Shown here piece after piece: positions 6,921-34,222 of a stretch of DNA of 53,743 nucleotides; positions within the stretch are counted from its first letter, which is position 1; each line of letters opens with the position of its first letter. The stretch comes from Acidimicrobiales bacterium. GTDB taxonomy: Bacteria > Actinomycetota > Acidimicrobiia > Acidimicrobiales > Iamiaceae. The DNA lies in contig JAOBWM010000165.1 in NCBI GenBank assembly GCA_025463365.1, forward strand, positions 1-53,743, in the 5' to 3' direction. The notes under the pieces are model-generated. The model did no database searches. It had not been told where the DNA came from and saw nothing but the letters and a program-made list of their open reading frames with translations. Both the position numbers and the translations under genes were made by a program.

Positions 6921-6929
6921 AGCGAAACC

Positions 6930-6935: not shown

Positions 6936-6943
6936 CACGAACC

Positions 6944-7105
6944 ATGACGCAGCAGCCGCAGGCCGGCCTCCTGATGCTGGTGACCTCGGTCGCGTCAACG
7001 TCGATCTCCACCATCCCGTACACCGGGTCTGCGGAGCGCGATGCAGGAGCCGCCGAACGACGGCTCGCCCTGGTCACCAACACGTCTACAAGGAGCCCAA
7101 GATGA
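6944..7105 (+). CDS. Possible 53-residue leader peptide, coupled to the ABC operon
   Basis: This small frame begins with ATG and the residues MTQQPQAGLLMLVTS. It ends in a TGA that overlaps the start of the substrate-binding protein by four bases (ATGA). No Shine-Dalgarno precedes the ATG, but a TACAGT -10 element lies 8 bases upstream, fitting a leaderless start. Third-position G/C is high in the first 28 codons and lower afterwards, which argues against full coding status. No domain is recognisable. It may be a leader peptide, or only the untranslated leader of the operon. Confidence 0.3.
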   Translation: MTQQPQAGLLMLVTSVASTSISTIPYTGSAERDAGAAERRLALVTNTSTRSPR

Positions 7106-8196: not shown

Positions 8197-8204
8197 GGCC
8201 GGCC

Positions 8205-9107: not shown

Positions 9108-9112
9108 GCGTC

Positions 9113-10743: not shown

Positions 10744-10761
10744 GCGCCGCGAGTCACGGCC

Positions 10762-11931
10762 TCAGGCGGGGTCAATGGTGAGCGTGACCTTGGCGGTCGT
10801 GAACGCCTTGGTCACGCTCGGGTCGAGGCCCACCGGCTTGGCGTCGATGCCGAGCTCGTAGCGGAGGAACGCCACGCTCAGGTGGTCGATGGCGGCGAAG
10901 GCCCTCGTGGGTTCGAGATCGCCCTTCTCGCAGCCGTCGCTCGCCAACCGCAGCAGGCTGGCCGGCAGGTCGAGCCCGGCCTCCTTCACCAAGGCGACGA
11001 GCCCTCCCTGGTCCTTGCCGATCTCGCAGATGTCGGAGAAGACGAGGTGGCCGGCGCCCTGGATCTGCACCTCGTACTTCGGTGCCCGCATGTCGTCGTA
11101 GACCTTGCGGCTCTCGGCCGGCGCGATGATGCCGTCCTTGGTGCCGAGCATCACCATGCCCGGAACCTTCGGGACCGGGGGTACAGCGGCCTTGCCATCC
11201 TCGCCACCGAGCCCCACGGAGTACGAGATGAACGCCTTGATCCGTGGATCCGACGACGCCTCCGCGTAGGCGGCCTCGGCACCGGCGGAGTGGCCGGCGA
11301 CCGCGACCTCGCTCGTGTCGAGCAGCCCGTGCAGGGGCGAGCCGGCCCGCTTGGAATCGGCGATGGCGGCGTCGAGCGACTGGCTGAGGACCTCAGGGTC
11401 CTTCAGGGCCGGGACGCCTTGCGACGCCGTGCCGAGCAGTCCGCTCAGGCTGCGCTCGACGTGATCGGGCGCCACCACCACGAACCCCCAGCTTGCGAGG
11501 TGCGTGACGAGGTCGGCCGACTGCTCCGGGAACCCGGCGTAGCCATGGCTGAACAGGACCACGGGGAAGGGCCCGTCGGGGGCCGGCTCAGCGCCCTGGT
11601 GGGCGTCGATCGCGTACTTCGGCCGGAGGTCGGCGGCGATCTGGGACTGCAGCTTCTGCGACAAGAGGCTCGCGATGTCGAAGATCTCCGTCGGTTGGTC
11701 GTTCGCCGACGAGGCCGCCGGATACCACGCCACCACCCGCCGCCCGTCGCCGAGGGCGAACGTGGTCGTGCCCACCGGATGCGGGCCCTTGCCCTCGTAG
11801 GCAGCCTTCGCCGTCGCGGGCCGCACGCTGGTCGTCGTGGCTGCGGGGCCGCCACTGCCGGAGCTGCAGGCCACCAGGCCGGCGGCGAGGGCGAGGGCGG
11901 TGAAGCTGGCGACGGTGCGGCGTGGGATCAC
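10762..11931 (-). CDS. Secreted alpha/beta-hydrolase lipoprotein (dienelactone hydrolase / PAF-acetylhydrolase-like)
   Basis: This 389-residue protein starts with a lipoprotein signal peptide, TALALAAGLVAC, placing the lipidated cysteine near residue 22, then a Ser/Gly/Thr-rich linker. The catalytic domain has the oxyanion-side motif VVLFSHGYAGF and the nucleophile elbow AVAGHSAGAEAAY, with a late histidine in GAGHLVFSD, completing an alpha/beta-hydrolase triad. The GTG at 11931 is supported by a TACGTT -10 element 6 bases upstream. The enzyme acts outside the membrane on an ester or similar substrate that cannot be specified. It is divergent from the second adenosine deaminase. Confidence 0.85.
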   Translation of the reverse strand: MIPRRTVASFTALALAAGLVACSSGSGGPAATTTSVRPATAKAAYEGKGPHPVGTTTFALGDGRRVVAWYPAASSANDQPTEIFDIASLLSQKLQSQIAADLRPKYAIDAHQGAEPAPDGPFPVVLFSHGYAGFPEQSADLVTHLASWGFVVVAPDHVERSLSGLLGTASQGVPALKDPEVLSQSLDAAIADSKRAGSPLHGLLDTSEVAVAGHSAGAEAAYAEASSDPRIKAFISYSVGLGGEDGKAAVPPVPKVPGMVMLGTKDGIIAPAESRKVYDDMRAPKYEVQIQGAGHLVFSDICEIGKDQGGLVALVKEAGLDLPASLLRLASDGCEKGDLEPTRAFAAIDHLSVAFLRYELGIDAKPVGLDPSVTKAFTTAKVTLTIDPA

Positions 11932-11937
11932 AAGGGG

Positions 11938-11943
11938 AACGTA
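11938..11943 (-). promoter_or_regulatory. -10 element TACGTT, leaderless start
   Basis: TACGTT on the minus strand ends 6 bases before the GTG at 11931, fitting leaderless transcription of the lipoprotein hydrolase. Confidence 0.4.
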
Positions 11944-11960
11944 GGCCTCCGGCGACCCTG

Positions 11961-11975
11961 TTCACACAGCGTTGA
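11961..11975 (+). promoter_or_regulatory. Operator-like site C
   Basis: TTCACACAGCGTTGA fits TTNACANNNYGTTGA. It lies between the lipoprotein hydrolase and the second adenosine deaminase. A separate TGGCAA half-site, as in sites A2 and B2, follows at 11992-11997. Confidence 0.45.
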
Positions 11976-12009
11976 CCGACCGGTGCCGCGCTGGCAACAG
12001 CGCGCTGCG

Positions 12010-12015
12010 TACCGT
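12010..12015 (+). promoter_or_regulatory. -10 element TACCGT, leaderless start
   Basis: TACCGT ends 6 bases before the ATG at 12022, and no Shine-Dalgarno is visible, so the mRNA of the second adenosine deaminase probably begins at its start codon. Confidence 0.45.
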
Positions 12016-12021
12016 GCGTAC

Positions 12022-13032
12022 ATGCGCGACCTCGCCACGTTGCCGAAGGCCCACCTCCACCTCCACCTGGAGGGCGCCATGCGCCCGGCCACGTTGCGGG
12101 AGCTGGCCGATGCGGCCGGCATGGCCGTACCGGTCATCCGGGGATTCGGGAGCTTCAGCGCCTTCTCCGACATGTACGTGGCGGCCTGCGAGGTGTTGCA
12201 GAGCGACGCCGACCTGCGCCGTCTGGTCGACGAGGTGGTTGCCGACGCTGCCGCGGCCGGTGCCGTCTGGGTCGAGCCGGCCACCTACGTGCCGCACCAC
12301 CGCGAACGCCTCGGGTCCGACGAGCACATCCTCGAGCTGATCCTCGACGAGCTCACCGCGGCGGGCTGCCGCCACGGGGTGGGCACCGGCCTGCTCATCG
12401 CCGCAGATCGCACGCTCGACCCGTCCGACGCGATCGCGCAGGCCCGCCTGGCGGTGCGCTACGCGGCCGACGGGGTGGTGAGCTTCGGGCTCCACAACGA
12501 CGAGGCCGGCCACCCGCCCGAACCCTTCGCCGAGGCGTTCGACATCGCCCTGGCCGGTGGCCTCCTCAGTGCGCCCCACGCCGGCGAGCTCGACGGACCG
12601 TCCAGCGTCGTCGGCGCCGTCGACCGGCTGGGCGCCCATCGCATCCAGCACGGCGTGCGCGCCGTCGAGGACCCCGACCTGGTGGTGCAGCTCGCCGACC
12701 TCGGGATCTGCCTCGATGTCTGCCCCACCTCCAACGTCTTGCTATCGGTGGTCCCATCCATCGAGGACCACCCGCTCCCCGAACTGCTGGCCGCCGGGGT
12801 CCGCTGCTCGCTCAACGCCGACGACCCGCTGTTGTTCGGCCCGGGGCTGCTCGAGGAGTACGAGCTGTGCCGCACCACGCTCGGCCTCGACGACGCGCAG
12901 CTGGCCGACATCGCGCGCACCTCGGTGGAGGCCAGCGGGGCGCCCGACGCCCTGAAGGTCCACGCCGCCCACGACATCGACAACTGGGTGTCGGCCGACG
13001 CGGGCGAGACGGCCGCTGAGGCCGTCGCCTGA
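12022..13032 (+). CDS. Adenosine/adenine deaminase family protein (second paralogue)
   Basis: This 336-residue deaminase has the full active-site set: KAHLHLHLEGAM (zinc HxH), SFGLHNDEAG, SAPHAGELDGP with the catalytic His and Glu, HRIQHGVRA, VCPTSNVLL and SLNADDPLLFG. It is distinct from the paralogue at 4354-5424, which has HQGE where this one has the usual HAGE, so the two probably have different substrates. The ATG at 12022 follows a leaderless -10 element. It stands alone on its strand, convergent with the nucleoside hydrolase 24 bases downstream. Confidence 0.9.
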   Translation: MRDLATLPKAHLHLHLEGAMRPATLRELADAAGMAVPVIRGFGSFSAFSDMYVAACEVLQSDADLRRLVDEVVADAAAAGAVWVEPATYVPHHRERLGSDEHILELILDELTAAGCRHGVGTGLLIAADRTLDPSDAIAQARLAVRYAADGVVSFGLHNDEAGHPPEPFAEAFDIALAGGLLSAPHAGELDGPSSVVGAVDRLGAHRIQHGVRAVEDPDLVVQLADLGICLDVCPTSNVLLSVVPSIEDHPLPELLAAGVRCSLNADDPLLFGPGLLEEYELCRTTLGLDDAQLADIARTSVEASGAPDALKVHAAHDIDNWVSADAGETAAEAVA

Positions 13033-13056
13033 CGCCGTCGCCTCACGCCAGGCCGC

Positions 13057-14028
13057 TCAGAAGAGGGAGGCGACCGCGGCACGGAACGGCGCGGGGTCGA
13101 CACCGAGGGCGATGCGCCACGGCGCGAAGCCGTCGCTGTCGGATTCGGGGATCGGGCGGCGATCGGCGATGGTGGCGCCCCACGCCGCGCTACCGCCGGT
13201 GTCCACGGCCAGCGGGTGCACCGGAGCGTCGGTGATGACCGGCTGCTCGGCGGCGGCGAGGACGGCCAACAGATCGTGGCAGGGGAACGTGCCCACCGGC
13301 CGCTGGCCGACCGACGCGTAGAACGCGGCGTAGCCCTCGAGCGCACCGGCGAGGAACCGCGCCGGGAGGGCGTCGGAGCGCTGGGCGGCCGCCAGCTCGT
13401 CATCGACGGACAGGAGGGCCTGCATGGTCACGTCGAGACCGACGAGCAGCGGCGGCAGCTCGGTGCTCCAGCGCCCGTCGACGACCAGAGCCGCGGCCTC
13501 GGGGTCGTGGCCGACGTTGGCCTCCGCGGCCGGGAGCGCGTTGCCGCCGGCGCGCACCGAGCCGCCCATGACCGTGAGCGACCGATAGCCATGGGTGATC
13601 TCGGGGTGGTCCGCCACTGCGAGTGCGAGCGTGGTGAGCGGGCCGATGGTGACGAGGTCGAGGCCACCGGGCTCCTCGGCGGCGAGGCGAGCGAGGAGCT
13701 CACCCGCCGGCTCGCGCACAGGCACCAGACCGCCGGTGGACCAATGGTGGGCGTGGCCGCCGAGCCCGTCCTCGCCGTGCACGTGGGTGGCGCGATCGGT
13801 GAGCGGGGTGGCACCCATGGGATCGGTGGCGCCGAGCGCCACGGGGATGTCGGGCCGACCGGCGGCGTGGAGGATCCGGTGCAGGTTGGCGGCCGCGAGG
13901 TCGCGGTCGACGTTGCCCCACGTGGCCACCAGGGCGACGACCTCGACGTCGGGCGAGCGGAGGGCCCACCACAACGCGACGGCGTCGTCGACCCCGCCGT
14001 CGGTGTCGATCACCAGTCGTCGGGTCAT
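13057..14028 (-). CDS. Nucleoside hydrolase (inosine/uridine-preferring type)
   Basis: This 323-residue enzyme begins with the calcium-binding aspartate cluster DTDGGVDDA (residues 8-16). The canonical form is DTDPGxDD, so glycine replaces proline. The family middle segment TVMGGSVRAGGNALPAAEAN follows, with the histidine-containing DPEAA turn after it. It cleaves ribonucleosides to base and ribose, feeding nucleobases into the pathway. The ATG at 14028 overlaps the stop of the MFS transporter by four bases, making it the last gene of the seven-gene operon that starts at the xanthine dehydrogenase. Confidence 0.9.
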   Translation of the reverse strand: MTRRLVIDTDGGVDDAVALWWALRSPDVEVVALVATWGNVDRDLAAANLHRILHAAGRPDIPVALGATDPMGATPLTDRATHVHGEDGLGGHAHHWSTGGLVPVREPAGELLARLAAEEPGGLDLVTIGPLTTLALAVADHPEITHGYRSLTVMGGSVRAGGNALPAAEANVGHDPEAAALVVDGRWSTELPPLLVGLDVTMQALLSVDDELAAAQRSDALPARFLAGALEGYAAFYASVGQRPVGTFPCHDLLAVLAAAEQPVITDAPVHPLAVDTGGSAAWGATIADRRPIPESDSDGFAPWRIALGVDPAPFRAAVASLF

Positions 14029-15515
14029 CTTTTCGTCCCTCCTACGGGTTCAGCGGCGTCGGTGCCCTGCGTGCGCCGCCACACGACCGCCGCGGCGAGC
14101 AGCAGGATCACCATGGCGGTCAACAGCGGCGGTGCCAGCGAGTGCGTGAAGTGGTCCCGCGCCGCGGCCGCGGCCGGGCCGCCCAGCTTCCCCGGCGAGA
14201 TGGCGGCAACCCCTCCCGCTGCCGCGGCGAGGACGCTGCCCATGACGGCGATCCCGAACGCGCCGCCGGCTTCGACGATGGTCTCGTTGACGCCAGCCGC
14301 CTGGCCCGCCTGCTCGGGCGGAACCGAACCCATGATCATCTCCACGCCGGGCGGGCAGGCCAGCCCGACGCCGAGCCCCACCACCACGATGGCGGCGATC
14401 ACCGGCGCCAGGCTCCCGTGGAAGGCGGCGCCGAAACCGACGGCGGAGGCGAGGACGAGCAAGCCGGTGACCGTGGCCTTGCCGAGTCCGATGCGGGCCA
14501 CCACCCGGGTGGACAACAGCGAGCCCACCAGGACGGCGGCGGCGTTCGGGACGAAGCACGCTCCGGACTGCAGCGGCGAGAGCCGCTCCACGCCTTGCAG
14601 CCACTGGCTGAGCACGAACTGGGCGCCGAAGACGCTGAAGAAGACGGCGGGCACGGCGACCATCCCCGCCTGCATCCGGGGGTCGGCCACCGCCGCAGGG
14701 GACAGCAGCGGGTGCGAGGTCCGCCGCTCCCACCACGCGAACAAGGTGAGCAGGCCGACGCCGAGGGCGACCGCACCGACCACGGTTGCCGACACCCACC
14801 CGCGTCCCGGTCCCTCGATCACCGCGAACAGCAACAGGCCCAACGCTCCGGTCCAGATCAGCGATCCGGGGACGTCGACCGCAGGCGTGGCCGGATCCTT
14901 CGAGGTCGGCACCAGCAGCAGCGCGGCGACGAAGACCCCGGCGGTCACGGGCACGTTGACCAGGAACACCGAGCCCCACCAGAACCGATCGAGCAGGATG
15001 CCGCCGACCACCGGCCCGGCCGCGCCGGCCAGCGCCGACATCCCCGACCAGATGGCGATGGCGCGGGCCCGCTCGTGCTGGGCGAACACGTTGCCCAGCA
15101 CGGCCAGCGTGGCCGGCATGGTCCCGGCGCCGCCCACGCCCATCAGCCCGCGGGCGACGATCAGCTGGCCCGACGATGCCGCGAAGGCAGCACCGGCCGA
15201 GGCGGCGCCGAACAGGACCACACCCACCAGGAGGAGGCCCTTGCGGCCGAACCGGTCGCCGAGGCCGGCCAGGGGCAGGAGCAGGGCGGCCAGCACCAGG
15301 CTGTAGGCGGTCGTGATCCACTGCAGCGCGGTCTCGTCCGCGTGGAGGTCGTGGCCGACCCGAGGGACGGCGACGGCCAGGATCGTGTTGTCCAGCACGA
15401 CGATGCACAGCGCCGCGCAGAGCACGGCGAGGATCCGCCAGCGGTCGGGGTGCCCGTCGCTCGGGTCAGCCGGCGTGGGCCTCGCCGAGGCGCTCGTGGT
15501 GGGCGACTCGCCCAT
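14025..15515 (-). CDS. MFS transporter, DHA2-like (14-segment)
   Basis: This 496-residue major facilitator has about 14 hydrophobic segments. It carries the inter-helix motif GLGDRFGRKGLLLVG, the first-helix LDNTILAVAVPRVG and the motif-C-like AGAAGPVVGGILLDRF typical of proton-driven exporters of the DHA2 branch. Its start lies 50 bases inside the end of the preceding Rieske gene on the same strand, and its end overlaps the nucleoside hydrolase start. Operon membership suggests movement of a purine, alkaloid or toxic product of the oxygenases; direction is not determinable. Confidence 0.9.
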   Translation of the reverse strand: MGESPTTSASARPTPADPSDGHPDRWRILAVLCAALCIVVLDNTILAVAVPRVGHDLHADETALQWITTAYSLVLAALLLPLAGLGDRFGRKGLLLVGVVLFGAASAGAAFAASSGQLIVARGLMGVGGAGTMPATLAVLGNVFAQHERARAIAIWSGMSALAGAAGPVVGGILLDRFWWGSVFLVNVPVTAGVFVAALLLVPTSKDPATPAVDVPGSLIWTGALGLLLFAVIEGPGRGWVSATVVGAVALGVGLLTLFAWWERRTSHPLLSPAAVADPRMQAGMVAVPAVFFSVFGAQFVLSQWLQGVERLSPLQSGACFVPNAAAVLVGSLLSTRVVARIGLGKATVTGLLVLASAVGFGAAFHGSLAPVIAAIVVVGLGVGLACPPGVEMIMGSVPPEQAGQAAGVNETIVEAGGAFGIAVMGSVLAAAAGGVAAISPGKLGGPAAAAARDHFTHSLAPPLLTAMVILLLAAAVVWRRTQGTDAAEPVGGTKR

Positions 15516-16587
15516 CGGTGCTCCCTGTTGGGGCGGGCGCCGCGGCTGGCGGTGCGGTCAGGGTGGCCTGGGCCACGAAGTCGGCCAGGATACGACGGAG
15601 CTCGACGGTCATGCGATCCGCCTTGACGTGGACCTCGGTGGTCAGCTCGAGCGGGATGGAGCGGTGGAGGTACCCCTCCTGGACCACGAGATCCTCCGCC
15701 GTGACGGCGTGCTCGAAGGCCACCGCCTCGGCCAACCGGTCGAGGTCACCGTCGAGGTCGTCGCGCTGCACCGAGGCATAGATGGTGGCGTGGTCCGCGT
15801 CGACGGGTTGGACGAAGAAGGTGATGACGTTCGTGCCGCCGGCCTCCTCGTAGTCGATGCGCAACCAGGCGGCGAAGGGCGCCGTGTAGCGGTAGGTGAC
15901 GTGGCGGGTCTGCAGCAACGGACGCTCGCCGGTCTCGACGCCGGGATCCTCGCGGTTGGGGAACCGTTGGGCCGATCGAACCGTGAGGGCGAGGCCGTCG
16001 CGCTCCATCTCGAAGGGCCCGACGTCGGTGGACTCCTCGTCGCCGATGGTGGCGGCGTGCACGAACGGGAAGTGGGCGACGTCGAGGAAGTTGTCCATCA
16101 GCAGGCCGGCCGAGGCGCAGGCCTGCAGGACCGGGAGGTCGCCGCTGAGGAACCGACCGAGCTCGTCGGCGGCGATCGGCACGTCGGGCAGCGGCACCCT
16201 CGGCGGCTCGGGCGCGATCCAGACCAGGCCGAGGTGGGTCGCGACTCCGGCCGGCACGAAGGCGCGGGCCCGAGGTGGGAGCGTGGCGCCGTCGGGCAAC
16301 GACGGGATGCTCGAACAGCCGCCCGTCGACTCGAAGCACCAGCCGTGGTACCCGCAGCGCAGGATGTCGCGGTCGCCCTGGCTCTCGACGTGCCCGGCCG
16401 ACAGCGGGGCGAGGCGATGCGGGCACCGATCGGCGAAGGCGGCGACCTCGCCATCGAGGCGCACGACCACCCAGTGCTCGCCGAGGAGCCTGACCGCCAC
16501 CGGCTCGTCACCCAGATCGGAGGTCCGCAGGACCGGGTGCCACGCCGAGCGCAGCGACGGATCGAGGTTGGTGAGGACGTGGGTCAT
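15466..16587 (-). CDS. Rieske non-haem iron oxygenase alpha subunit, copy 2 of pair
   Basis: This 373-residue protein has an N-terminal Rieske 2Fe-2S domain with C55-P-H57 and C78-x2-H81 (in RCPHRLAP and RCGYHGW). Its C-terminal mononuclear-iron domain has the 2-His motif NFLDVAHFPFVH, with the electron-relay aspartate at about 169 and histidines at about 172 and 177. The length fits single-component-alpha oxygenases such as O- or N-demethylases rather than larger alpha/beta dioxygenases. The ATG at 16587 overlaps the stop of the other Rieske gene (ATGA). No reductase or ferredoxin gene lies nearby. Because it sits between purine genes, an N-substituted purine is the likely substrate; this is inference. 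Confidence 0.92.
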   Translation of the reverse strand: MTHVLTNLDPSLRSAWHPVLRTSDLGDEPVAVRLLGEHWVVVRLDGEVAAFADRCPHRLAPLSAGHVESQGDRDILRCGYHGWCFESTGGCSSIPSLPDGATLPPRARAFVPAGVATHLGLVWIAPEPPRVPLPDVPIAADELGRFLSGDLPVLQACASAGLLMDNFLDVAHFPFVHAATIGDEESTDVGPFEMERDGLALTVRSAQRFPNREDPGVETGERPLLQTRHVTYRYTAPFAAWLRIDYEEAGGTNVITFFVQPVDADHATIYASVQRDDLDGDLDRLAEAVAFEHAVTAEDLVVQEGYLHRSIPLELTTEVHVKADRMTVELRRILADFVAQATLTAPPAAAPAPTGSTDGRVAHHERLGEAHAG

Positions 16588-17633
16588 CGGGCCTCCATGG
16601 GCGCCTCGACGACGACCCGATCGGCGGCGACGGCCGCCGCGACCTCGGCCGGTCCCGACGCCCGCGCGGTCACGAGCTCGCGCAACCAGCGGCGGTACTC
16701 GATCGACACCCGATCGGTCCGCACCGAGAGCTCGAAGCCGGGCTCGAGCGAGAGGGACGGCGGGTCCTGGTTGGTCACCAGCGGTTCGTCCTCGCGGAGC
16801 ACCAGGTCCTGGAACGCCAGGTGGTCGGCGTCGTCCTCGTCGTGGCGGTCGTCGCGCGAGACGTACCAGAACGTGCGGCACGACCCGTCGTCGATCGGCG
16901 ACGCCGTCATCCAGAGGTTGCGGTGCGCGCCGTCGGCCAGGTCGAAGTCGATGCTCACCGTGAGCGGCACCGGCATCCGGTAGCGGGAGTAGCCAAACAA
17001 CGCCGTCTGATCTGTTGCCATGTCCGGCGGTTCGTAGTCGAAGCGGAGCTCGCCCGCTTCGCGCCGGATGCGGGGCAACGGTGGAACGGGCTCGTCACGC
17101 CGGCCGAGCGAGCCGTCGTGGACCCAGGCGAAGTGGGCGAGGTCGACGAAGTTCTCGACCCGTCGAGGCGCACCGACCGGCCACGTGTACGGCGTGCCGG
17201 CCACGACCTTCATGGACGTGTCGTCCCAGGCCGGGCAGGCCGGCAGGGACGTGTCGGCCGAGCCGTCGAGCCGGACCCACACCAGGCCGTAGGCGAGCTG
17301 CGCCTCGTACGCCGGGATGCACGCGCGAGGCGGGATGGGCCCGTCCGGCATGGAGGGGATCTCGACGCACCGACCGGCCGCGTCCCAGCGCCAGCCGTGG
17401 TAGCCGCACCGGAACGCACCGTCGTCGACCCACCCGACGCTGAGGCGGGTCGAGCGATGGATGCAGCGGTCAGCGACGACACCGATGCCCGGCTCCCCCA
17501 GGTCGGCGACGGCCAGGCGCTGCCCGAGCAGCTGGATGCCGAGCGGCTGTGGTGCGGCAGCGCGCAGCTCCTCCACCGTGCACACCGGGTGCCAGAACAG
17601 CTCCAGCACCTCCGACAGTGCCGCCGTGCTCAT
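16584..17633 (-). CDS. Rieske non-haem iron oxygenase alpha subunit, NdmA/NdmB-like copy
   Basis: The 349-residue protein has the Rieske ligands C57-x-H59 (DRCIHRS) and C76-x2-H79 (RCGYHGW), and the iron-site motif [12 protein letters not shown] with D164, H167 and H172. Length and several blocks ([12 protein letters not shown] near the N-terminus, [12 protein letters not shown] near the C-terminus) recall, from memory and not from an alignment, the methylxanthine N-demethylases NdmA and NdmB, which are about 350 residues. The ATG at 17633 overlaps the stop of the LLM gene (ATGA), so LLM, this gene and the next Rieske gene form a coupled trio. The catalysed reaction would be O2-dependent N-dealkylation or ring hydroxylation. 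Confidence 0.92.
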
Positions 17634-18634
17634 CCTGCATCCCAGCCGGAGAACGCATCGATCATGGCCCCGACGTCGTCGGCCAAGGGGTACAGCACCG
17701 GGCAGGTGCACCCGTTGGCCACGTACTCCGCGACCTTGGTCCGACACTCGTCGGGCGTGCCCGACGCGGTGATCATCTGGACGATCTCGTCGGGGACCCG
17801 CTTGGCCGCCTCCACCACCTGGTCGTGCGTGGCCGGCCATGTCAGCACCTCGCCCACCTCGTCGAGCACCTCTTGCGGGACGCCCGACGCCTTCATGATG
17901 TGGGGCTGCTGCCCGAGGTACTGCGTGACGAGGAGCCGGGCCGCGTCGAGGGCCGCCTGGCGATCCTCGTCCATCGAGCACACCACGAGCTGGGGCCGGT
18001 CGATGTCGGCAACGGCCTTGCCGGCCTTGGCCGCCCCGATCGCGAGGTGCTCCATCGCCTCTCGGTTGTACGACGGCGACACGAGGTAGTTGAGCAGGAC
18101 GCCGTCGCCGATCTCGCCGGCCAGCTCCATCATCTTCATGCCGGTGGCCCCGATGACGATCGGCACGTCCTTGGGCACGCGCTCCTGGTGCACGTAGTCG
18201 AGCTCGACGCCGTCGAGGTGCACGAACTCCCCGTCGAAGGTGACGGTCTCCATGTTGAGCAGGGCTCGGACGACGGTGACGATCTCGCGCATGGCCAGCA
18301 GGGGGCGGCGACGGTCCACCCCGACCTTGCTGGCGAGCGGCTCCCACCACGCACCGAGGCCGAGGATGGCCCGACCCGGCGCCAGGTCGTCGAGCGTCGA
18401 GAAGGTGGAGGCGAGCAGCGCCGGATTGCGGGTCCACAGCGCCGAGACGCCCGACCCCAACTTGATGCGCTCGGTCACCGCACCGAACGCGGCGAGCGGG
18501 ACCGTGGCCTCGCGGACGAGGCGGCTCTCGGCCTGCCACACCGCTTCGAAGCCGGCGGCTTCGGCGTGCTGGGCGTATCGCATGCCGTCGCGGATCGGGT
18601 GGGCGTCCTGCAGGTACAGCGCGACTCGGGTCAT
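17630..18634 (-). CDS. LLM-class flavin-dependent oxidoreductase
   Basis: This 334-residue protein is a luciferase-like TIM barrel. It shows the N-terminal [20 protein letters not shown], the [20 protein letters not shown] segment, the [15 protein letters not shown] turn and [20 protein letters not shown], as in F420- or FMN-dependent members related to methylene-tetrahydromethanopterin reductase. It could be a monooxygenase (as RutA is for uracil) or an F420-dependent dehydrogenase. Its stop overlaps the start of the first Rieske gene, so it may supply or process the same substrate. The flavin or F420 choice cannot be decided from motifs. Confidence 0.85.
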
Positions 18635-18659: not shown

Positions 18660-19715
18660 TCATGGGAGGTCGGCCAGGCGTGCGTGCAGGCGGCTTGCGG
18701 CTTCGGCCGCGTGGGCGCGGACCTCGGCGGCGTCGACGCGGGTGGGGCCGTTCGCGTCGAGCACGACCGCGCCGTCGACCACGATCTCGGTGGGGCGGAC
18801 GCCCGGCGTGTAGGCGAGGTGCCACGGGTCCATCGGCGAGTAGGTCCACGTGACCTGGTCGTCGCGAGCCTCGGGCACGAGGTCGTAGCCGGCCTCCAGC
18901 CAGGACCAGGCGACGTCGGGCGACGCGGTGAGGTCGTCGGCGCGGTGGGCGACGAACGCGACGCGAGCCTCCTCGACCATGTCAGCCCCGATCCCGTCGG
19001 TACCGAGCACGACCCGCTGCCCGGCCTCGGCCCAGCGCGCCGGGCGGCCGTAACCGACTGCGTTGTTCAGGTTGGACCGGGCGTTGTGCAGCACCGTCCC
19101 CGGCAGCTGTCGGTCGAGGTGCACGGCGTGTGCGAGCAGCCAGTCGTCCTGGGCCCGGCCGGCCAGGCGCTCACCGGCCGGCACGTCGATCTCGCCCTCG
19201 GCCACGTGGATGTGGACGCCGACACCGAGGTCGGTCGCCAGGCCGCAGACCGCGTCGAGCGTGGCGTCGGAGAGGGTGAACGCGGCGTGGGCCCCGACGA
19301 GTCCCCGGCCCCCGGAGCGGATGAACCGCTCGTTCTCGGCCAGGCCGGCCGCCGCCCCGTCGGGGCCGTTGCGATCGGTGACCTCGTAGGCGCACACGAC
19401 CCGGACGCCGACCTCCGCGCATGCGTCCGCGATGACATCGAGGCTGCCCTCGATCGCGCTCGGCGACGAGTGGTGGTCGATGATCGCGGTGGTGCCGGCC
19501 TCGAGCGCTTCGAGGGCGCCCAGGCGGGCCGAGTGGCGGATCGTGTCGAGGTCGAGAGCGCGGTCGAGGCGCCACCACACCAGCTCGAGGACCTCGAGGA
19601 AGGACTTCGGCGTCCGCGGCGGCGCGGGCATGCCCCGTGCGAGCGCGGAGTACAGGTGGTGGTGCCCGCAGACCATCCCGCCGGTGACGGCGCCGGTACC
19701 GCTGGCGCCGCTCAC
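18660..19715 (-). CDS. SsnA-like amidohydrolase with a trimmed N-terminus
   Basis: This 351-residue aminohydrolase starts almost at the metal HxH motif: [18 protein letters not shown] is within the first 32 residues. The beta-sandwich of about 60 residues that precedes this motif in SsnA, guanine deaminase and relatives is therefore absent at the N-terminus. Later motifs are intact: [20 protein letters not shown] and the aspartate in [11 protein letters not shown]. The GTG at 19715 overlaps the stop of the xanthine dehydrogenase as GTGA, which fixes the short form; the frame is open to 19757 but that extension lies inside the upstream gene. A deaminase role on a purine is likely. Confidence 0.82.
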
Positions 19716-22294
19716 GGTGCTGCTGGCTGCCGGCGCATCGGGAGGCGGGTGCGCCACTCGCCGTCGAGGTCGTGGAGGGCGGCCGCGACCGCACCGGCCG
19801 TCGGGACGAGGCCGATCTCGCCGACCCCCTTGATCCCGTAGGGGCTGTTGGGCTGGGGGTCCTCGATCAAGATGACGTCGACGGGCGGCATGTCCTTGGC
19901 CCGGATGATGCCGAGGGCTCGCAACGTGGTGGCGGTCGGCCGGGCGTCGTCGTCGGTCGGGAAGTCCTCGGTCAACGCGTACCCCAGCCCCATGTGGACC
20001 GAGCCCTCGATCTGGCCTTCGACGAGGAGCGGGTTCACGGCCTTGCCGACGTCGTGCGCGGCGACGACCTTCTCGATGACTCCGGTCTCCCGGTCGAGGA
20101 TCACGACCTGAGCGGCGTAGCCGAAGGTCGAGTGGATGACCGGGTGCTCGAGGCCGTCCTCGATCTTGTTCGTCCAGTCGATGACGTATTCACCCTCGTG
20201 GTCGACCCCCACCGTGCACCCGGCGGCGAGGGCGTTGCGGCAGGCGTCCTGCACGGCGCCGGCGCCCATGAGGGTGCCGCGGCTGCCGGTGGTCTGGCCC
20301 TTGCCGAGCTCGCGGGTGGTGTCGACCACCACGCGCACGCGCTCGGGCTCGATGCCGAGCTCGGTGCAGGCGACCTGCAGGACCACGGTGTGGATGCCCT
20401 GCCCCATCTCGGTCCAGCAGTGGCGGACCTCGACGGTGCCGTCCTCCTCGAAGCGCACGACCGCCTTCGAGACCTCGAGGAACCCGTTGCCGAGCCCCGA
20501 GTTCTTGAGGCCGAGGCCGAGGCCGACCGCCTTGCCGTCGGCGGCCGCCTGCTCGACCACGGGCCGCACGGCATCCAGGCACGAGCGGGCGCCGCGGCAC
20601 CCCTCGTCCATGATCTGGCCGGGACCCCAGACCGCCCCGGGGGTGATGACGTTGCGATCGCGGATCTCCCAGCCCGTGATGCCGACCTGCTCGGCGAGCC
20701 GGTCGAGGATGCCCTCCATCGCGAACTGGGCCTGGTTGGCGCCGAACCCTCGGAACGCACCGCAGACCGGGTTGTTGGTGCGGACGGCCACCGCCTCGAC
20801 GTCGATGTTGGGCACCTCGTACGGGCCCGATGCGTGGCCGGCGGCCCGTTCGAGGACCTTCATCCCCACCGAGGCGTACGGGCCGGAGTCGCCGACCATG
20901 CGGTACTTGAGCGCGGTGAGCTTGCCGTCCGCATCGCACGCGGCCTCGGCCTCGATGTGGATCGGGTGTCGCTTGGCGTGCATCAGCAGCGACTCCTCGC
21001 GGCTGAGCGTGCACTTCACCGGCACGCCCAGGAGATGGGCGGCGAGGGCGGTGTGGCCCTGGTTGCTCATGTCCTCCTTGCCGCCGAACGCGCCGCCGTT
21101 CGAGACGAGCTCCACCGTGACCTCGTCGATGCCGATGTCGAGCAGGGCGGCGATCTGATCCCGGTCGTCCCAGACGCCCTGGCCACCGGAGTAGACGAGC
21201 AGCGGGCCGTGGTCGCCGCCGGGGACCGCCACGGTGGATTCGGGTTCGAGGAACGCGTGCTCGACTCGCTGGGTGTGGAACGTCTCATGGACCACGTGCG
21301 GACCGGCGGCGAGGGCGGCGTCGACGTCGCCCCGGGCGTAGACCGACCGGGAGAGCACGTTTCCGTCCAGCTCCCACACCGCGTCCTCGGCGCCGTCGGC
21401 CATGGCGGAGAACGGATCGGCGAACGGCGTGAGCGGCCGGTACTCGACCGCGACGAGCTCGGCCGCAGCTCGGGCCGTGGGTCGATCGACGGCGACCACC
21501 ACGGCGAGGACGTCACCGAGGTACGACGTGCGCCCACCCTCGGGGATCATGACCGGCCAGTCCTTGTGGATGATCCCGACCCGCAACGTCCCGGGGATGT
21601 CGGCCGCGGTGAACACCGCCTCGACGCCGGGCACCGCCAGCGCGGCCGAGGTGTCGATGGCGACGACGTCGGCGCGGGCGTGGGCGCTCAGGTGCAGCGC
21701 GGCGTCGCGCATCCCGGGGATGCGGATGTCGTCGATGAAGTGCTTGTCGCCCAGGGCGAGGCTCTCGCCCTGGTACCGGGTGCCCCGCTCCCCCAACCCC
21801 GTCGGCAGGGCGACGGGCACCTCGATGCCCTTGGCCAGGTTCTCGACCGCGTCGAGGATCTTGGTGTAGCCGGTGCAGCGGCAGAGGTGCCCACCGAGGT
21901 GGCGCGCCGCCGTGTCGCGGTCGAGCGACGAGCCCTTCTTGTCCAGCAGGGCCTTGACGCGCACCAAGATCCCGGGCGTGCAGAAGCCGCACTGGAGGGC
22001 CCCGGTGGCCGCGAAGGCGGCCGCCATCGTGTCGCGTTCCGCCGCGTCGAAGCCCTCGAGGGTGGTGACCTCCTTGCCCTCGGCGCGCTCGAGGCCGACC
22101 TGGCACGAGACCACGGCCTTGCCGTCGAGCAGGACCGTGCAGCACCCGCACTGCCCCGACGGCGAGCAGCCGTCCTTGGGCGAGAGCACCCCCAGCTCGT
22201 CGCGCAGGGCCGCGAGCAGGTGGGGGTGGGTGTCGCCGACCGCAACGGCCTCCCCGTTCACGGAGAAGGCGTGGGTGGCGACCGCTGACGACAT
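19712..22294 (-). CDS. Fused 2Fe-2S / molybdopterin xanthine dehydrogenase (XdhD / Se-dependent XDH type)
   Basis: The 860-residue protein joins two modules. Residues 1-155 are a CoxS-type domain with plant-type 2Fe-2S cysteines (DGCSPSGQCGCCTV) and a second cluster (QCGFCTPG, HLCRCTGY). The remainder is a CoxL-type molybdenum domain with GGAFGGKEDMSNQGH, GAFRGFGANQAQ, TEMGQGIHT and the catalytic glutamate in GIKGVGEIG. This fusion without an FAD domain matches the XdhD and selenium-dependent xanthine dehydrogenase group. No in-frame stop suggests selenocysteine. The ATG at 22294 has GAGG five bases upstream; a GTG at 22309 is possible. It is first in the operon and would oxidise hypoxanthine or xanthine to urate. 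No FAD subunit gene is present. Confidence 0.92.
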   Translation of the reverse strand: MSSAVATHAFSVNGEAVAVGDTHPHLLAALRDELGVLSPKDGCSPSGQCGCCTVLLDGKAVVSCQVGLERAEGKEVTTLEGFDAAERDTMAAAFAATGALQCGFCTPGILVRVKALLDKKGSSLDRDTAARHLGGHLCRCTGYTKILDAVENLAKGIEVPVALPTGLGERGTRYQGESLALGDKHFIDDIRIPGMRDAALHLSAHARADVVAIDTSAALAVPGVEAVFTAADIPGTLRVGIIHKDWPVMIPEGGRTSYLGDVLAVVVAVDRPTARAAAELVAVEYRPLTPFADPFSAMADGAEDAVWELDGNVLSRSVYARGDVDAALAAGPHVVHETFHTQRVEHAFLEPESTVAVPGGDHGPLLVYSGGQGVWDDRDQIAALLDIGIDEVTVELVSNGGAFGGKEDMSNQGHTALAAHLLGVPVKCTLSREESLLMHAKRHPIHIEAEAACDADGKLTALKYRMVGDSGPYASVGMKVLERAAGHASGPYEVPNIDVEAVAVRTNNPVCGAFRGFGANQAQFAMEGILDRLAEQVGITGWEIRDRNVITPGAVWGPGQIMDEGCRGARSCLDAVRPVVEQAAADGKAVGLGLGLKNSGLGNGFLEVSKAVVRFEEDGTVEVRHCWTEMGQGIHTVVLQVACTELGIEPERVRVVVDTTRELGKGQTTGSRGTLMGAGAVQDACRNALAAGCTVGVDHEGEYVIDWTNKIEDGLEHPVIHSTFGYAAQVVILDRETGVIEKVVAAHDVGKAVNPLLVEGQIEGSVHMGLGYALTEDFPTDDDARPTATTLRALGIIRAKDMPPVDVILIEDPQPNSPYGIKGVGEIGLVPTAGAVAAALHDLDGEWRTRLPMRRQPAAP

Positions 22295-22315
22295 GGACCT
22301 CAAGTTCACGCGGTT

Positions 22316-22365: not shown

Positions 22366-23502
22366 ATGCCCGACGTCACGATCCTGCGGAACCCCGGCCG
22401 CTCCGCACCACCGGCCTCCGGACCCGCGGGACCGTCGCCACGTGCCTTCCACCGACGGCTCCCCGGCTACGAACCGACCCCGCTCATCAGCGCCGGCGAC
22501 CTGGCCGCCGAGCTGGGCCTCGGGCAGCTCTGGATCAAGGACGAGGCCTGGCGGCTCGGTCTCCCGGCCTTCAAGATGCTCGGTGCCTCCTGGGCGTCGT
22601 ATCGGCTGCTGGTCCAGCGGTTGGGCCACGAGCCGGCGTGGTCCTCGGTGGAGGAGCTCGCCGCCGCCCTCGGTCCCATCAAGCCCCTCACCCTCGTGGC
22701 GGCCACCGACGGCAACCACGGCCGAGCCGTCGCCCGCACCGCCAAGCTGCTCGGCCTCGGCGCCGAGATCCTCGTGCCCGAGGGCACGGCAGCGGCGCGC
22801 GTCGACGCCATCGCCTCCGAAGGGGCCGCGGTGTCGGTGGTCGACGGCACCTACGACGACGCCATCGCCGCGTCCGCCGCCCTCGCGTCCGCCGACCACC
22901 TCGTCGTGTCCGACACCTCCTGGCCCGGGTACGCCGAGGTCCCGCGCTGGGTGATCGACGGGTACACGACGATCTTCGAGGAGGTCGACGAACAGCTCGC
23001 CGCCCTCGGGGCCCGGCCGCCGGACGTGGTGGTGGCGCAGATGGGCGTCGGTGCCCTCGCCGCCGCCGTGGGCGGGCACTTCCGCGCCGTCTCGGGTACC
23101 GGGCCGCTCATCGTCGTGGTCGAACCCGACACGGCGGACTGCGGGCTGCGATCCGCCGAGGCCGGCCGGCTGGTCGAGGTGCCCGGTCCGCACCGCTCGA
23201 TCATGGCCGGGCTCAACTGTGGCCGGGCGTCGGAGTTGGCGTGGCCGGTGGTGTCCGCCGCGACGGACGTGTTCGTCGCCGTCGGCGACGACGCGGCCGA
23301 GGGAGCCATGCGCGACCTCGCCCGGCTCGGGGTGGTGGCGGGCGAGACGGGCGGGTCGGGCCTGGCGGGGCTTCGGGCCCTGGTGGAGTCGGGCTTCGAC
23401 GCGATCGGAGCGTCCACATCGGTGCTGGTGATCAACACCGAGGGTCCCACCGATCCAGAGGCCTACGAGCGGATCGTCGGTACGGCCGTCGTCGGGCGAT
23501 GA
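22366..23502 (+). CDS. dpaL: Diaminopropionate ammonia-lyase family PLP enzyme
   Basis: This 378-residue protein belongs to the fold-type II PLP family. The Schiff-base lysine lies in LPAFKMLGASWAS, the phosphate-side asparagine loop is ATDGNHGRAVA, and the TWPGY-type segment reads SDTSWPGYAEVPRWV, as in diaminopropionate ammonia-lyase (YgeX). That enzyme converts 2,3-diaminopropionate to pyruvate and two ammonia; in bacterial purine-degradation clusters it is the terminal step. The ATG at 22366 is chosen because it directly precedes family-like sequence. It is divergent from the xanthine dehydrogenase and coupled to xdhC by an ATGA overlap. Threonine dehydratase-like activity is an alternative. 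Confidence 0.87.
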   Translation: MPDVTILRNPGRSAPPASGPAGPSPRAFHRRLPGYEPTPLISAGDLAAELGLGQLWIKDEAWRLGLPAFKMLGASWASYRLLVQRLGHEPAWSSVEELAAALGPIKPLTLVAATDGNHGRAVARTAKLLGLGAEILVPEGTAAARVDAIASEGAAVSVVDGTYDDAIAASAALASADHLVVSDTSWPGYAEVPRWVIDGYTTIFEEVDEQLAALGARPPDVVVAQMGVGALAAAVGGHFRAVSGTGPLIVVVEPDTADCGLRSAEAGRLVEVPGPHRSIMAGLNCGRASELAWPVVSAATDVFVAVGDDAAEGAMRDLARLGVVAGETGGSGLAGLRALVESGFDAIGASTSVLVINTEGPTDPEAYERIVGTAVVGR

Positions 23503-24578
23503 GCGACGTCTTCGACCACGCCGCCGCGTGGCTCGCCGAAGGCCACCAGGTGGCACTCGGGCGCATCGTGGCCGTCGACGGATCCGCACCTCGGGGCGCT
23601 GGCGCGGCCATGGCGGTGACCGAGGGTCACGAGGTCGCGGGATCCATCTCGGGCGGGTGCGTGGAATCGGCCCTCGTGGAGTCGGCCGATGGGGTGCTCG
23701 CCTCCGGCCTCGTCAGCACGGCCCGCTACACCCCCGACGATGACCGATGGTCCGTGGGCCTCACCTGTGGCGGCACGCTCGATGTGGTCGTCGAGCCCAT
23801 CGGCGACTGGCCCGAGGGCGTCCTCGATGCCCTGCGGGCCGACCTGGCGGGCGGGAGGTCCGTCGCCCTCGCCACCGCCACCACGTCCGGCCACGCGGCT
23901 GGCGCGCTGCTCGCCCGCCCCGATGGTTCCACCGTCGGCACCCTCGGCTCCCAGGCGCTCGACGAGGACGTCAGCGGCCAGCTGGCGGTCCTGCTCGCCG
24001 ACGGCCACGAGACCGCCACCAGGGTGGGGCCCGGCGACGTGTTCGTCCAGACGTGGGTCCCGCCGGACCGGCTCGTCGTGTTCGGTGCCGTCGACTTCAC
24101 CGCGGCGCTGGTCCAGGTGGCCAAGGTGCTCGGGTTCCACGTGACCGTCTGCGATGCCCGGGCGGTGTTCGCCACCGGCGAGCGGTTCCCCGAGGCCGAC
24201 GAGGTCGTCGTCGACCGGCCCGAGCGCCTGCTCGCCGAGATCGGGGGTCGCCTCGGGCCGCGGGACGCGGTGTGCGTCCTCACCCACGACGTGAAGTTCG
24301 ACGTGCCCGCGATCGTCGGTGCGTTGGCGACCGATGTCGGCTACCTGGGGGCGATGGGCTCGCGCAAGACCCACGCCGACCGCTTGGCGCGTCTGCGCGA
24401 GGCCGGCGTCGACGACGAGGGCCTGGCTCGCCTGCACTCGCCGATCGGGCTCGACCTTGGCGGCCGCACCCCGGGCGAGACCGCCGTGTCGATCGTGGCC
24501 GAGATCGTCGCGAGCCGCTCAGGAACGCCCGGACCCACCCCGAGCCTGCGGGACACGTCGCTCCCCATCCATCGCTAG
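23499..24578 (+). CDS. xdhC: XdhC/CoxI family molybdenum-hydroxylase maturation protein
   Basis: This 359-residue protein has the N-terminal XdhC/CoxI domain, with the conserved VDGSAPRGAGAAMAV and SISGGCVESALVESA, the second cysteine in LTCGGTLDVVVEP, and the C-terminal Rossmann-like domain (LVVFGAVDFTAALVQVAKVL, YLGAMGSRKTHADRL, GLDLGGRTPGETAVSIVAEI). XdhC binds molybdenum cofactor and delivers its sulfurated form to xanthine dehydrogenase. The usual GxG of the Rossmann turn reads FGAVD here. The ATG at 23499 overlaps the previous stop as ATGA. The 3' end overlaps the convergent Fur-family gene by 60 bases. Confidence 0.93.
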   Translation: MSDVFDHAAAWLAEGHQVALGRIVAVDGSAPRGAGAAMAVTEGHEVAGSISGGCVESALVESADGVLASGLVSTARYTPDDDRWSVGLTCGGTLDVVVEPIGDWPEGVLDALRADLAGGRSVALATATTSGHAAGALLARPDGSTVGTLGSQALDEDVSGQLAVLLADGHETATRVGPGDVFVQTWVPPDRLVVFGAVDFTAALVQVAKVLGFHVTVCDARAVFATGERFPEADEVVVDRPERLLAEIGGRLGPRDAVCVLTHDVKFDVPAIVGALATDVGYLGAMGSRKTHADRLARLREAGVDDEGLARLHSPIGLDLGGRTPGETAVSIVAEIVASRSGTPGPTPSLRDTSLPIHR

Positions 24579-28767: not shown

Positions 28768-30306
28768 TCAGTGCCCGGCACCCATGGCGAACACGGCGCT
28801 GTTGGCGAGGTGGCCCACGATCTCGGGCAGCACGCCGACGACCACGGCGCCGATCGTGGCGATGGCGACCACCGCGGCGAGCGGCAATGGCACCCGGATC
28901 GGCGTGACGTCACCGTCGGGCACGTCGTCCATGAACATCGTCCGGACGATCGAGAGGTAGTACGCGAGGGAGATCACCGAGTTGACGGCCATCACGACGC
29001 CCATCGTGTAGCCCAGCCAGGTGTGGCCGCCGACCACCGCGCTGAAGAGCTGGAACTTGGCGAACCAGCCCATCGCCGGCGGGATGCCGCCGAGGCCGAA
29101 CACGAACAGCGCCATGCAGGTGGCGAGGGCAGGGGCATAGGTCCACAACCCGCCCCAGGCCTTGATGTCGCCGGTGCCGAGCCGCCGGCTCACGGAGATG
29201 ATCACGGCGAACACACCAAGGTTGATCAGCGTGTACACGAGGGTGTAGCCGACGATGGCACTCAGCACCCGCCCGTTGTTGCCGGGCACGCCGCCGGGGC
29301 CGAGGCCCGACCCGAAGACGGCCAGCGGGGCGAGGATGAACCCGGCCTGCGCGACCGACGAGTAGGCGAACAGCCGGACGATGTTGGTCTGGCGGAGGGC
29401 GATCACGTTGCCGACCGTCATCGTGAGCACGGCCAGTACGAACATGAACGGGCGGATCACATCGGCCCGGTCGAGGAACCCGATGAACACGAGCTGGAGG
29501 ATGGCGACGAAGCCCGCCGTCTTGGAAGCCACCGACAAGAAGGCGGTGACGGGCGTGGGCGCGCCTTCGTACGTGTCCGGTGCCCAGTTGTGGAACGGCA
29601 CCGCCGACACCTTGAAGCCGAAGCCCACCAACACGAAGATGATCCCGACGACGGCGACCGGCTCCTGCATGAAGGAGTGGTTGACCTTGCTGCCGATCTC
29701 GGTGAGCAGGGTGCTCCCCGTGCCGCCGAAGATCAGCGACATGCCGTACAGCATCACGGCCGAGGCGAAGACGCCCATCAGGTAGTACTTCATCCCGGCC
29801 TCGTTGCCGGTGAGGGTGCGCTTGCGCCAGCCGGCCAGCAGGTAGGCCGGGATGGACAGCATCTCGAGGGCGATGAAGATCGAGATGAGGTCGCGGCTGC
29901 TCGCCATGACCGTCATGCCGAACACCGCCGACAAGATCAACAGGTAGTACTCGCCTTCGGCGTAGTCGCCCTCGGCGATCGTGTTCGTGGACAGCAGGAT
30001 CGTCAGGTAGCCGGCCACGAGGAAGAGGCCCTTGAGCACGAGGGCGAAGTCGTCGACCACGTAGGCCCCGCCGAACATGGAGCGGGAGTGGTTGTCGGCG
30101 GCCAGCGTGAGGACCGGGACGAGGGCGGCGAGCATCCCGATGCCGGCCACCGACGAGGCCGTCCAGCGGCTGTGTTCGGCGGTCGTCACGTCGACGAGCA
30201 GGCAGATCACGATCGTGACCGTCAGGACGATCTCGGGCGCGAGCGCGTGCCAGTCGACGGCCGGCCGGGTGAACCCCCCGGCCACGGCGAGCACGGTTGC
30301 CAGCAT
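28768..30306 (-). CDS. nuoN: NADH-quinone oxidoreductase subunit N, first complex I
   Basis: This 512-residue antiporter-like membrane subunit has about 14 helices, with the conserved EMLSIPAYLLAGW block, the lysine of VGFGFKVSAVPFHNWAPD and LFAYSSVAQAGFIL. It forms part of the proton-pumping membrane arm. The ATG at 30306 shares one base with the nuoM stop (TGATG). It differs clearly in sequence from the nuoN at 44178-45713, so the two loci are not a recent duplication. Confidence 0.95.
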   Translation of the reverse strand: MLATVLAVAGGFTRPAVDWHALAPEIVLTVTIVICLLVDVTTAEHSRWTASSVAGIGMLAALVPVLTLAADNHSRSMFGGAYVVDDFALVLKGLFLVAGYLTILLSTNTIAEGDYAEGEYYLLILSAVFGMTVMASSRDLISIFIALEMLSIPAYLLAGWRKRTLTGNEAGMKYYLMGVFASAVMLYGMSLIFGGTGSTLLTEIGSKVNHSFMQEPVAVVGIIFVLVGFGFKVSAVPFHNWAPDTYEGAPTPVTAFLSVASKTAGFVAILQLVFIGFLDRADVIRPFMFVLAVLTMTVGNVIALRQTNIVRLFAYSSVAQAGFILAPLAVFGSGLGPGGVPGNNGRVLSAIVGYTLVYTLINLGVFAVIISVSRRLGTGDIKAWGGLWTYAPALATCMALFVFGLGGIPPAMGWFAKFQLFSAVVGGHTWLGYTMGVVMAVNSVISLAYYLSIVRTMFMDDVPDGDVTPIRVPLPLAAVVAIATIGAVVVGVLPEIVGHLANSAVFAMGAGH

Positions 30307-31847: not shown

Positions 31848-31866
31848 GGTTTCGACTCCTCGGTCC

Positions 31867-34220: not shown

Positions 34221-34222
34221 CG

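Follow-up and report, generated by a model that had tools for sequence, protein, structure and literature searches.

What supplies electrons to, or takes them from, a xanthine dehydrogenase-like enzyme that has no flavin subunit? The question is raised by a gene at positions 19712-22294 of a 53,743-nucleotide stretch of an Acidimicrobiales bacterium of the Iamiaceae (contig JAOBWM010000165.1, assembly GCA_025463365.1; this whole stretch is called the window below), whose product joins iron-sulfur (Fe-S) and molybdenum (Mo) modules in one chain. The original prediction, made from the letters of the window, held that no gene for a flavin adenine dinucleotide (FAD) subunit accompanies this gene in the operon or the window, that the electrons must therefore leave by another partner, and that this partner could be the neighbouring luciferase-fold (LLM) flavoprotein, or a ferredoxin also feeding the pair of Rieske oxygenases encoded beside it. 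The first point is borne out, and as neither the operon nor the window yielded an FAD gene, a redox partner other than an FAD subunit is probably the right expectation. The direction of flow is another matter. With an SsnA-like hydrolase, a diaminopropionate ammonia-lyase and the LLM flavoprotein flanking the Mo gene, the best interpretation is that the cluster represents, in Acidimicrobiia, a variant form of the reductive urate pathway already known from other bacteria; its gene content matches that pathway, so that electrons probably enter the Mo enzyme instead of leaving it.

That the gene encodes a fused Fe-S/Mo hydroxylase really without a flavin part can be considered confirmed. The open reading frame (ORF) is 19712..22309 on the minus strand, 865 residues from a GTG at 22309 with an in-frame ATG at 22294 (hence 860-865 residues), and its third-position G+C content of 0.95 supports its being a true coding sequence. 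Pfam matches Fer2_2, Ald_Xan_dh_C, MoCoBD_1 and MoCoBD_2 and not FAD_binding_5; the chain starts with a [2Fe-2S] pair, which is followed by a hammerhead domain and then by two domains that bind molybdopterin. A search of named genomes for related loci confirmed 583 relatives, of which the best 80 are used throughout (55 of these 80 are titled Acidimicrobiia, Acidimicrobiales or Acidimicrobiaceae; counts of YgeX, HyuA and FAD genes refer to the stretch fetched for each locus). All 80 have the fused flavin-free architecture, which is therefore neither chance nor an assembly artefact. In an alignment of 81 Mo-enzyme sequences, at least 80 retain each of the cluster cysteines C48, C54, C57, C69, C107, C110, C143 and C145, and all 81 retain E831, which by alignment is the catalytic glutamate.

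The flavin-free design, which had been considered unusual, is not new: it is common to Enterococcus EF2570, Clostridioides difficile xdhA5 and the Desulfovibrio aldehyde oxidoreductase. EF2570 and xdhA5 are described as carrying, like the window enzyme, Mo and Fe-S modules in one chain without an FAD part (PMC11448449), and C. difficile XdhD is reported without an FAD subunit (PMC12507026). EF2570, compared here by description and not by alignment, also has genes for SsnA and diaminopropionate lyase clustered with it, as in the window (PMC2276186). The nearest NCBIfam model is that of EF2570 and xdhA5, TIGR03311 (selenium-dependent xanthine dehydrogenase), with 816.6 bits over profile positions 3-844 of 848, below the cut-off of 830.45; in our genome (98.4% complete, 219 contigs) the best match to the SelD model TIGR00476 scores 27.6 bits against a cut-off of 125. 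The selenium reading of the model's name is thus rejected for this genome and, as neither the model's own cut-off nor that of SelD is reached, we describe the enzyme as XdhAC-like and do not assign it to TIGR03311. Matches to E. coli YqeB (44-49%) do occur at loci L028, L053, L071 and L076, and those relatives may use selenium. The nearest solved sequences, at about 30% identity, are the FAD-free Desulfovibrio aldehyde oxidoreductases (1sij, 1dgj), from which the window enzyme nevertheless differs in its gene surroundings and in its score with NF045668, the model of FAD-free aldehyde oxidoreductases (411 bits, cut-off 1100 not reached). The predicted structure (mean pLDDT 83.4) fits best on 1dgj (Z 43.5, root-mean-square deviation 2.3, 827 residues); many rows of FAD-using xanthine oxidoreductases follow closely (Z 40-42.5) and FAD-free 1sij comes behind many of them (39.2), so that the fold by itself cannot separate FAD-free from FAD-using kinds.

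An orphan CoxM-type FAD subunit elsewhere in the genome, which the original prediction recommended searching for, was sought genome-wide with PF00941 and can be dismissed. The sole match lies on contig C189 (G000:C189), directly before genes for a 166-residue [2Fe-2S] protein and a 761-residue Mo protein, these being followed by an M20 amidase gene; this FAD gene thus has partner genes beside it and is no orphan. At their ends, C189 and contig C11 share an overlap of 142 bp (94%), and this end of C11 has a nitrilase-family amidase gene; the second operon thus probably extends over both contigs and reads FAD, Fe-S, Mo, M20, nitrilase. The whole genome has two MoCoBD_1 proteins. Among the related loci, a three-subunit operon of xanthine dehydrogenase type is often near the fused gene: 27/80 have an FAD gene in its vicinity, and in 26 of the 27 a separate Mo gene is no more than 4 kb from this FAD gene (in the exception, L081, the FAD gene is near the edge of the locus); not one of the 80 showed an FAD gene that would serve only the fused enzyme.

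In the reductive urate pathway, as described for E. coli and C. difficile, XdhD makes yanthine from urate, YgfK or UacX dearomatises it, and SsnA and HyuA open the rings; SsnA and YgeX are presented as the hallmark genes, Actinomycetota are listed among the phyla with SsnA, and for Chloroflexota an F420-dependent luciferase-family protein was proposed in 2025 in the place of YgfK (PMC12507026). According to a 2025 commentary (PMC12990295), XdhAC of Clostridium sporogenes reduces urate to yanthine when assayed with an artificial donor, and the physiological donor of this flavin-free enzyme is named there as an open question. Like the window enzyme, C. sporogenes XdhAC and C. difficile XdhD are Mo enzymes that have no FAD subunit and share their pathway with SsnA and a dearomatising reductase (PMC12507026, PMC12990295); in a comparison by description only, the window differs in having the LLM flavoprotein instead of YgfK or UacX, and in a host that is probably aerobic. 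For the Chloroflexota SsnA clusters the proposal is likewise that an LLM protein beside SsnA takes the YgfK/UacX place (PMC12507026), whereas the window type comes from genomes of Acidimicrobiia type, shows repeated exchange of LLM and YgfK, and has genes resembling Rieske demethylases in its operon. By gene context, E. coli XdhD-YgfM also holds the same place in the pathway; unlike the window enzyme, its XdhD has an FAD partner and none of the eight Fe-S cysteines. Without these cysteines, the path of electrons from the FAD of YgfM to Mo in the E. coli protein (L093:22317-25187) is puzzling.

We think the balance is somewhat in favour of the Mo enzyme being an XdhAC-type flavin-free hydroxylase of such a reductive purine pathway. 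A separate three-subunit xanthine dehydrogenase would bring purines to urate; the fused enzyme would take electrons through its two [2Fe-2S] clusters and convert urate to 2,8-dioxopurine (yanthine); the LLM protein would reduce and dearomatise yanthine with F420H2; the SsnA-like enzyme would open the ring; the remainder would be removed by three enzymes whose genes lie in other parts of the genome (an M20 amidase, a hydantoinase and a nitrilase-family amidase), and the diaminopropionate ammonia-lyase would yield pyruvate. A one-electron carrier with its gene beyond the window would be the donor to the Mo enzyme, a ferredoxin being the most likely one. The flavin-free architecture, the genes of the cluster, homologues for the later steps, the replacement of LLM by YgfK and a gene of F420 synthesis are observed; the direction of the reaction, the donor and the substrates of all the enzymes are deduced.

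Several results are consistent with this scheme. An SsnA homologue (tblastn, at least 50% identity) is present in 72/80 loci and begins less than 150 bp from the end of the Mo gene in 59/80. The hydantoinase, on contig C209, scores 482.9 bits (cut-off 393.25), and the nitrilase-family amidase on C11 is 65% identical to one whose gene is found next to the Mo gene in relatives; this amidase family occurs in 44-48 of the 80 loci, often abutting or overlapping the start of the Mo gene. By homology, we infer that the M20 and nitrilase-family amidases act on ureido groups, and the M20 amidase of C189 passes a general hydantoinase/carbamoylase model. Uricase (PF01014) and 5-hydroxyisourate hydrolase (PF00576) have no match in the genome, so that the usual oxidative route from urate looks absent (flavin-type and PuuD-type urate oxidases were not searched for).

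A further indication comes from the LLM protein and from what stands in its place at other loci. In both sequence and fold (Foldseek; model mean pLDDT 78.0) it is nearest to F420-dependent Mer, with fold scores of Z 33 for Mer, 27-29 for other F420 enzymes and about 22 for RutA. With 181.1 bits it stays below the cut-off of the Mer model TIGR03555 (348.7) and is thus a fold relative of Mer, not Mer itself; this kinship is our reason to expect that it binds F420. The capacity of the host to make F420 is judged from CofH, an F420 synthesis gene (469 bits, cut-off 374.1). In 18 aligned relatives, LLM is 67-78% identical to the window copy.

LLM (tblastn, at least 60% identity) was found in 38/80 loci and the N-terminal part of YgfK (more than 90 bits, starting in its first 60 residues) in 25/80, and never both (0/80). 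SsnA accompanies LLM in 36 loci and YgfK in 25; it stands without either in 11, LLM without SsnA in two, and six loci have none of the three. In 63 loci SsnA is followed by 900 bp or more of sequence; of these, 35 have LLM only, 24 YgfK only, four neither and none both (Fisher p 1.3e-13, which is indicative given that the loci are related). LLM starts at most 200 bp after SsnA in 31 of 36 cases (two on the opposite strand) and YgfK in 21 of 25, the others being farther off in the locus. On a quick tree of the 81 Mo enzymes, 17 rows of which have no LLM/YgfK label, this label needs four changes, three of them forced by starred (well-supported) branches, against about 20 when shuffled, and from this we conclude that the exchange probably happened more than once. 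Seven loci (L021, L023, L026, L046, L063, L071, L080) have full-length YgfK, with matches to its C-terminal half, and 16 a short form of about 600 residues. One such short form, L086:7265-9073, matches the N-terminal part with 437.5 bits over profile positions 4-398, has weak matches to 4Fe-4S ferredoxin domains and is without the NAD(P)H/FAD part; it resembles UacX as described in PMC12507026. In our own genome YgfK has nine matches, none over the cut-off, the best two covering profile positions 469-835 (168 bits) and 438-636 and not the N-terminal part; UacX was not searched.

A survey of 119 genomes of the class Acidimicrobiia (Mo enzyme at E up to 1e-250, LLM at E up to 1e-110) found the Mo enzyme in 34 and LLM in 18, all 18 being among the 34 (Fisher 2.4e-12; by genus, 2.4e-8). 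Several of these 18 carry the two genes on different contigs, and in G111 the Mo gene is a contig-edge fragment. The other 16 genomes with the Mo enzyme have no match to this LLM, which is therefore dispensable for the existence of the Mo enzyme. A protein that alternates with a reductase and has no match in so many of its presumed partner's genomes does not look like the electron partner that the original prediction saw in it. We consider that LLM is most likely an F420H2-dependent dearomatising (yanthine) reductase and not an electron acceptor, and the replacement evidence strengthens the published proposal of an F420-dependent yanthine reductase.

A number of observations weigh against the reductive reading and should be put together. 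E412 and R488 of the Mo enzyme are kept in 81/81 sequences and, in an alignment with the rat protein, match mammalian xanthine oxidoreductase; we take E802 and R880 to be their bovine counterparts. In E. coli XdhD the two positions are Q and N, and the active site of the window enzyme thus looks unlike that of the E. coli protein, which reportedly makes yanthine. Glu606 of E. coli XdhD (Li et al.) falls in a gapped region where two alignments place it differently. EF2570, with the same architecture, is known as a selenium-dependent xanthine dehydrogenase (PMC11448449). The M20 amidase of C189 passes two allantoate amidohydrolase models (454.9 against 452 and 424.5 against 399 bits), a name that belongs to the oxidative route. 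Three COX1 matches in the genome make the host probably O2-respiring, whereas the pathway has been called restricted to obligate or facultative anaerobes in the commentary cited above (PMC12990295). The SsnA-like protein is below both family cut-offs (for the second model, 248.4 against 455.5 bits, the best non-SsnA family reaching 66.8); the full cluster is not constant, with YgeX-like genes in 14/80 loci (one at 30% identity) and HyuA-like genes in 8/80; four loci with SsnA and enough flank have neither reductase; LLM folds include oxygenases such as RutA; and the activity of the pathway is argued from gene content and homology. As to the active site, E. coli XdhA, annotated as a xanthine dehydrogenase, is also without the E/R pair, and the pair consequently does not decide the direction. 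We gave up deriving the substrate from E412/R488 for the same reason, and from Glu606 because the region does not align. We still think it most likely that electrons enter the fused enzyme.

The opposite view would be that the fused enzyme oxidises xanthine, with electrons leaving via the Fe-S clusters to a ferredoxin or a cytochrome c, and that the FAD-containing enzyme of C189 is the urate reductase, like E. coli XdhD-YgfM. The mammalian-type E412/R488 pair and the activity reported for EF2570 (PMC11448449) speak for it, as does the Mo protein of C189, which in the alignment has N at the R488 position, as in E. coli XdhD. A small cytochrome c gene lies, moreover, 459-759 bp upstream of the Mo gene and divergent from it in 8/80 loci (L048, L050, L052, L054, L056, L064, L068, L073). 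These eight loci form a single clade of the Mo-enzyme tree, however (YgfK in five, no LLM or YgfK seen in the other three), and the cytochrome is a possible electron partner in those eight; the E/R pair is not decisive, as just said; in most of the 80 loci SsnA and LLM/YgfK have the fused gene, and not the other, beside them; and C. sporogenes XdhAC is reported to make yanthine from urate (PMC12990295). On the whole we regard this view as rather unlikely. We would give still less credit to the idea that the C189 FAD subunit is shared and docks on the fused enzyme too, conferring NAD-dependent activity. This FAD gene is the only one of its family in the genome, and the model of the fused enzyme is nearly as close to FAD-using xanthine oxidoreductases as to 1dgj, but it directly precedes its own Fe-S and Mo genes, nearby FAD genes in relatives have, with the exception of L081, a separate Mo gene at most 4 kb away, and the nearest solved sequences are FAD-free.

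The coupling suggested by the original prediction, in which electrons pass to LLM, or by a ferredoxin to the Rieske pair, so that purine oxidation would drive the oxygenases, seems to us very remote. It draws on the arrangement of the genes: directly after the Mo gene and SsnA, and in their orientation, come LLM and the two Rieske genes, the start codon of each Rieske gene overlapping the stop codon before it. Yet clear Rieske homologues near the Mo gene occur in 1/80 loci (L013, 65% and 58%, in the same order), with a weak one in L079, so that the pair is not a general partner of the Mo enzyme; almost half of the class genomes with the Mo enzyme have no match to LLM; and NdmA and NdmB are described as depending on a dedicated reductase, NdmD (PMC4408171). 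No ferredoxin gene came out of a six-frame motif scan of the window, a weak test whose CX4C pattern misses the CX5C cluster of the Mo enzyme itself: the plausible ORFs that it picked out were those of the Rieske pair and two within complex I blocks, the latter two not being family-searched. An equally weak scan for ORFs under 160 residues with a strict 4Fe-4S motif gave none in the 80 loci or the part of the window scanned (the ferredoxins of the genome were not searched for), and among the gene families shown that occur in at least six loci no ferredoxin was recognised, one of them being the cytochrome c of eight loci. There is finally the hypothesis that LLM is an FMN- and O2-dependent monooxygenase opening the purine ring, as RutA does on uracil, in an aerobic oxidative route. 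RutA shares the LLM fold, the host seems aerobic and the M20 amidase passes models named for allantoate amidohydrolase; on the other hand, Mer and other F420 enzymes score clearly above RutA, LLM occupies the slot of YgfK, a reductase, at other loci, with several exchanges, and the neighbouring genes that were searched included no recognisable flavin reductase. We hold this hypothesis to be improbable.

If the reductive reading is kept, a wider picture may be proposed, more tentatively, and we would not claim that it has the better of the odds: oxygen-respiring Acidimicrobiia would demethylate methylxanthines with O2-using NdmA/NdmB-like enzymes and then dismantle the purine ring reductively, with the flavin-free Mo enzyme reducing urate and an F420H2-dependent enzyme of a new kind dearomatising yanthine, the reductase slot being filled repeatedly by an NAD(P)H-type YgfK, by a short 4Fe-4S YgfK without the NAD(P)H module, or by the F420 enzyme. 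What is new here seems to be the setting, that is, an apparently aerobic actinobacterial cluster for seemingly reductive purine breakdown, with an F420 enzyme at a step done otherwise elsewhere. We found no literature report of this cluster in Acidimicrobiia or actinobacteria, most subscription journals being outside the search. The family offers a tractable comparative set, in which one Mo enzyme and SsnA are combined with three alternative reductases whose likely electron sources, judged from domain content, differ (NAD(P)H, an Fe-S carrier, F420H2). Should LLM indeed reduce yanthine, the dearomatisation of a purine would be added to F420 chemistry, and apparently aerobic actinobacteria would also run a pathway which PMC12990295 confines to obligate or facultative anaerobes.

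Table 1. Genes of the cluster around the flavin-free molybdenum enzyme (positions in the window)
Feature	Position	Strand	Evidence
Fused [2Fe-2S] and molybdenum hydroxylase without FAD domain (XdhAC-type)	19712..22294	-	Pfam, TIGR03311, 1dgj fold match
SsnA-like amidohydrolase, compact, start uncertain	18660..19757	-	NF005540 261.5 bits (cut-off 444, not reached), profile 56-341
Luciferase-fold (LLM) flavoprotein, proposed F420H2-dependent yanthine reductase	17630..18634	-	PF00296, NCBIfam, PDB 1z69 2.4e-40, Z 33 to Mer
Rieske oxygenase close to methylxanthine N1-demethylase NdmA	16584..17633	-	PDB 6icp 4.6e-75; ATG overlaps LLM stop (ATGA)
Second Rieske oxygenase, weaker NdmB relative	15466..16587	-	PDB 6icl 2.8e-29; ATG overlaps preceding Rieske stop (ATGA)
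Diaminopropionate ammonia-lyase (YgeX-like)	22366..23502; ORF from 22324	+, divergent from Mo gene	NF006058 348.6 bits (cut-off 276, reached)
XdhC/CoxI-family maturation factor	23499..24578	+	PF02625, PF13478; NF045664 195.2 bits (cut-off 350, not reached); ATG overlaps lyase stop (ATGA)

Some features of the genes in Table 1 deserve a comment. The SsnA-like protein starts near the metal-binding HxH motif and is without about 55 N-terminal residues of the SsnA model, which also holds for the proteins of those relatives whose starts were read. The YgeX-like lyase stays below the cut-offs of TIGR01747 (267 against 274 bits) and TIGR03528 (277.6 against 532.25). The position of the Rieske pair directly after LLM (15466-17633) hints at a possible link to caffeine or methylxanthines in an actinobacterium; no NdmD-type reductase was identified among the window genes searched.

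Other genes of purine type are found at 2446-15515, and this part of the window is perhaps a purine island. It contains an 8-oxoguanine deaminase gene (5421-6818, 580 bits, over the cut-off), a phosphoribosyltransferase gene nearest to a xanthine phosphoribosyltransferase model but below its cut-off (3808-4323), a nucleoside hydrolase gene (13057-14028), and genes for an NMT1-type binding protein and an ATP-binding cassette (ABC) ATPase (7102-9107). A family of small proteins of about 120 residues, for example L081:2053-2415, is encoded near the cluster in about 40 loci; its C-terminal stretch looks helix-turn-helix-like by eye, and it is perhaps a regulator of the cluster. Complex I-type genes form two blocks, at 30306-37835 and 45713-53692, each with a NuoM/antiporter-type gene, which suggests two versions of complex I.

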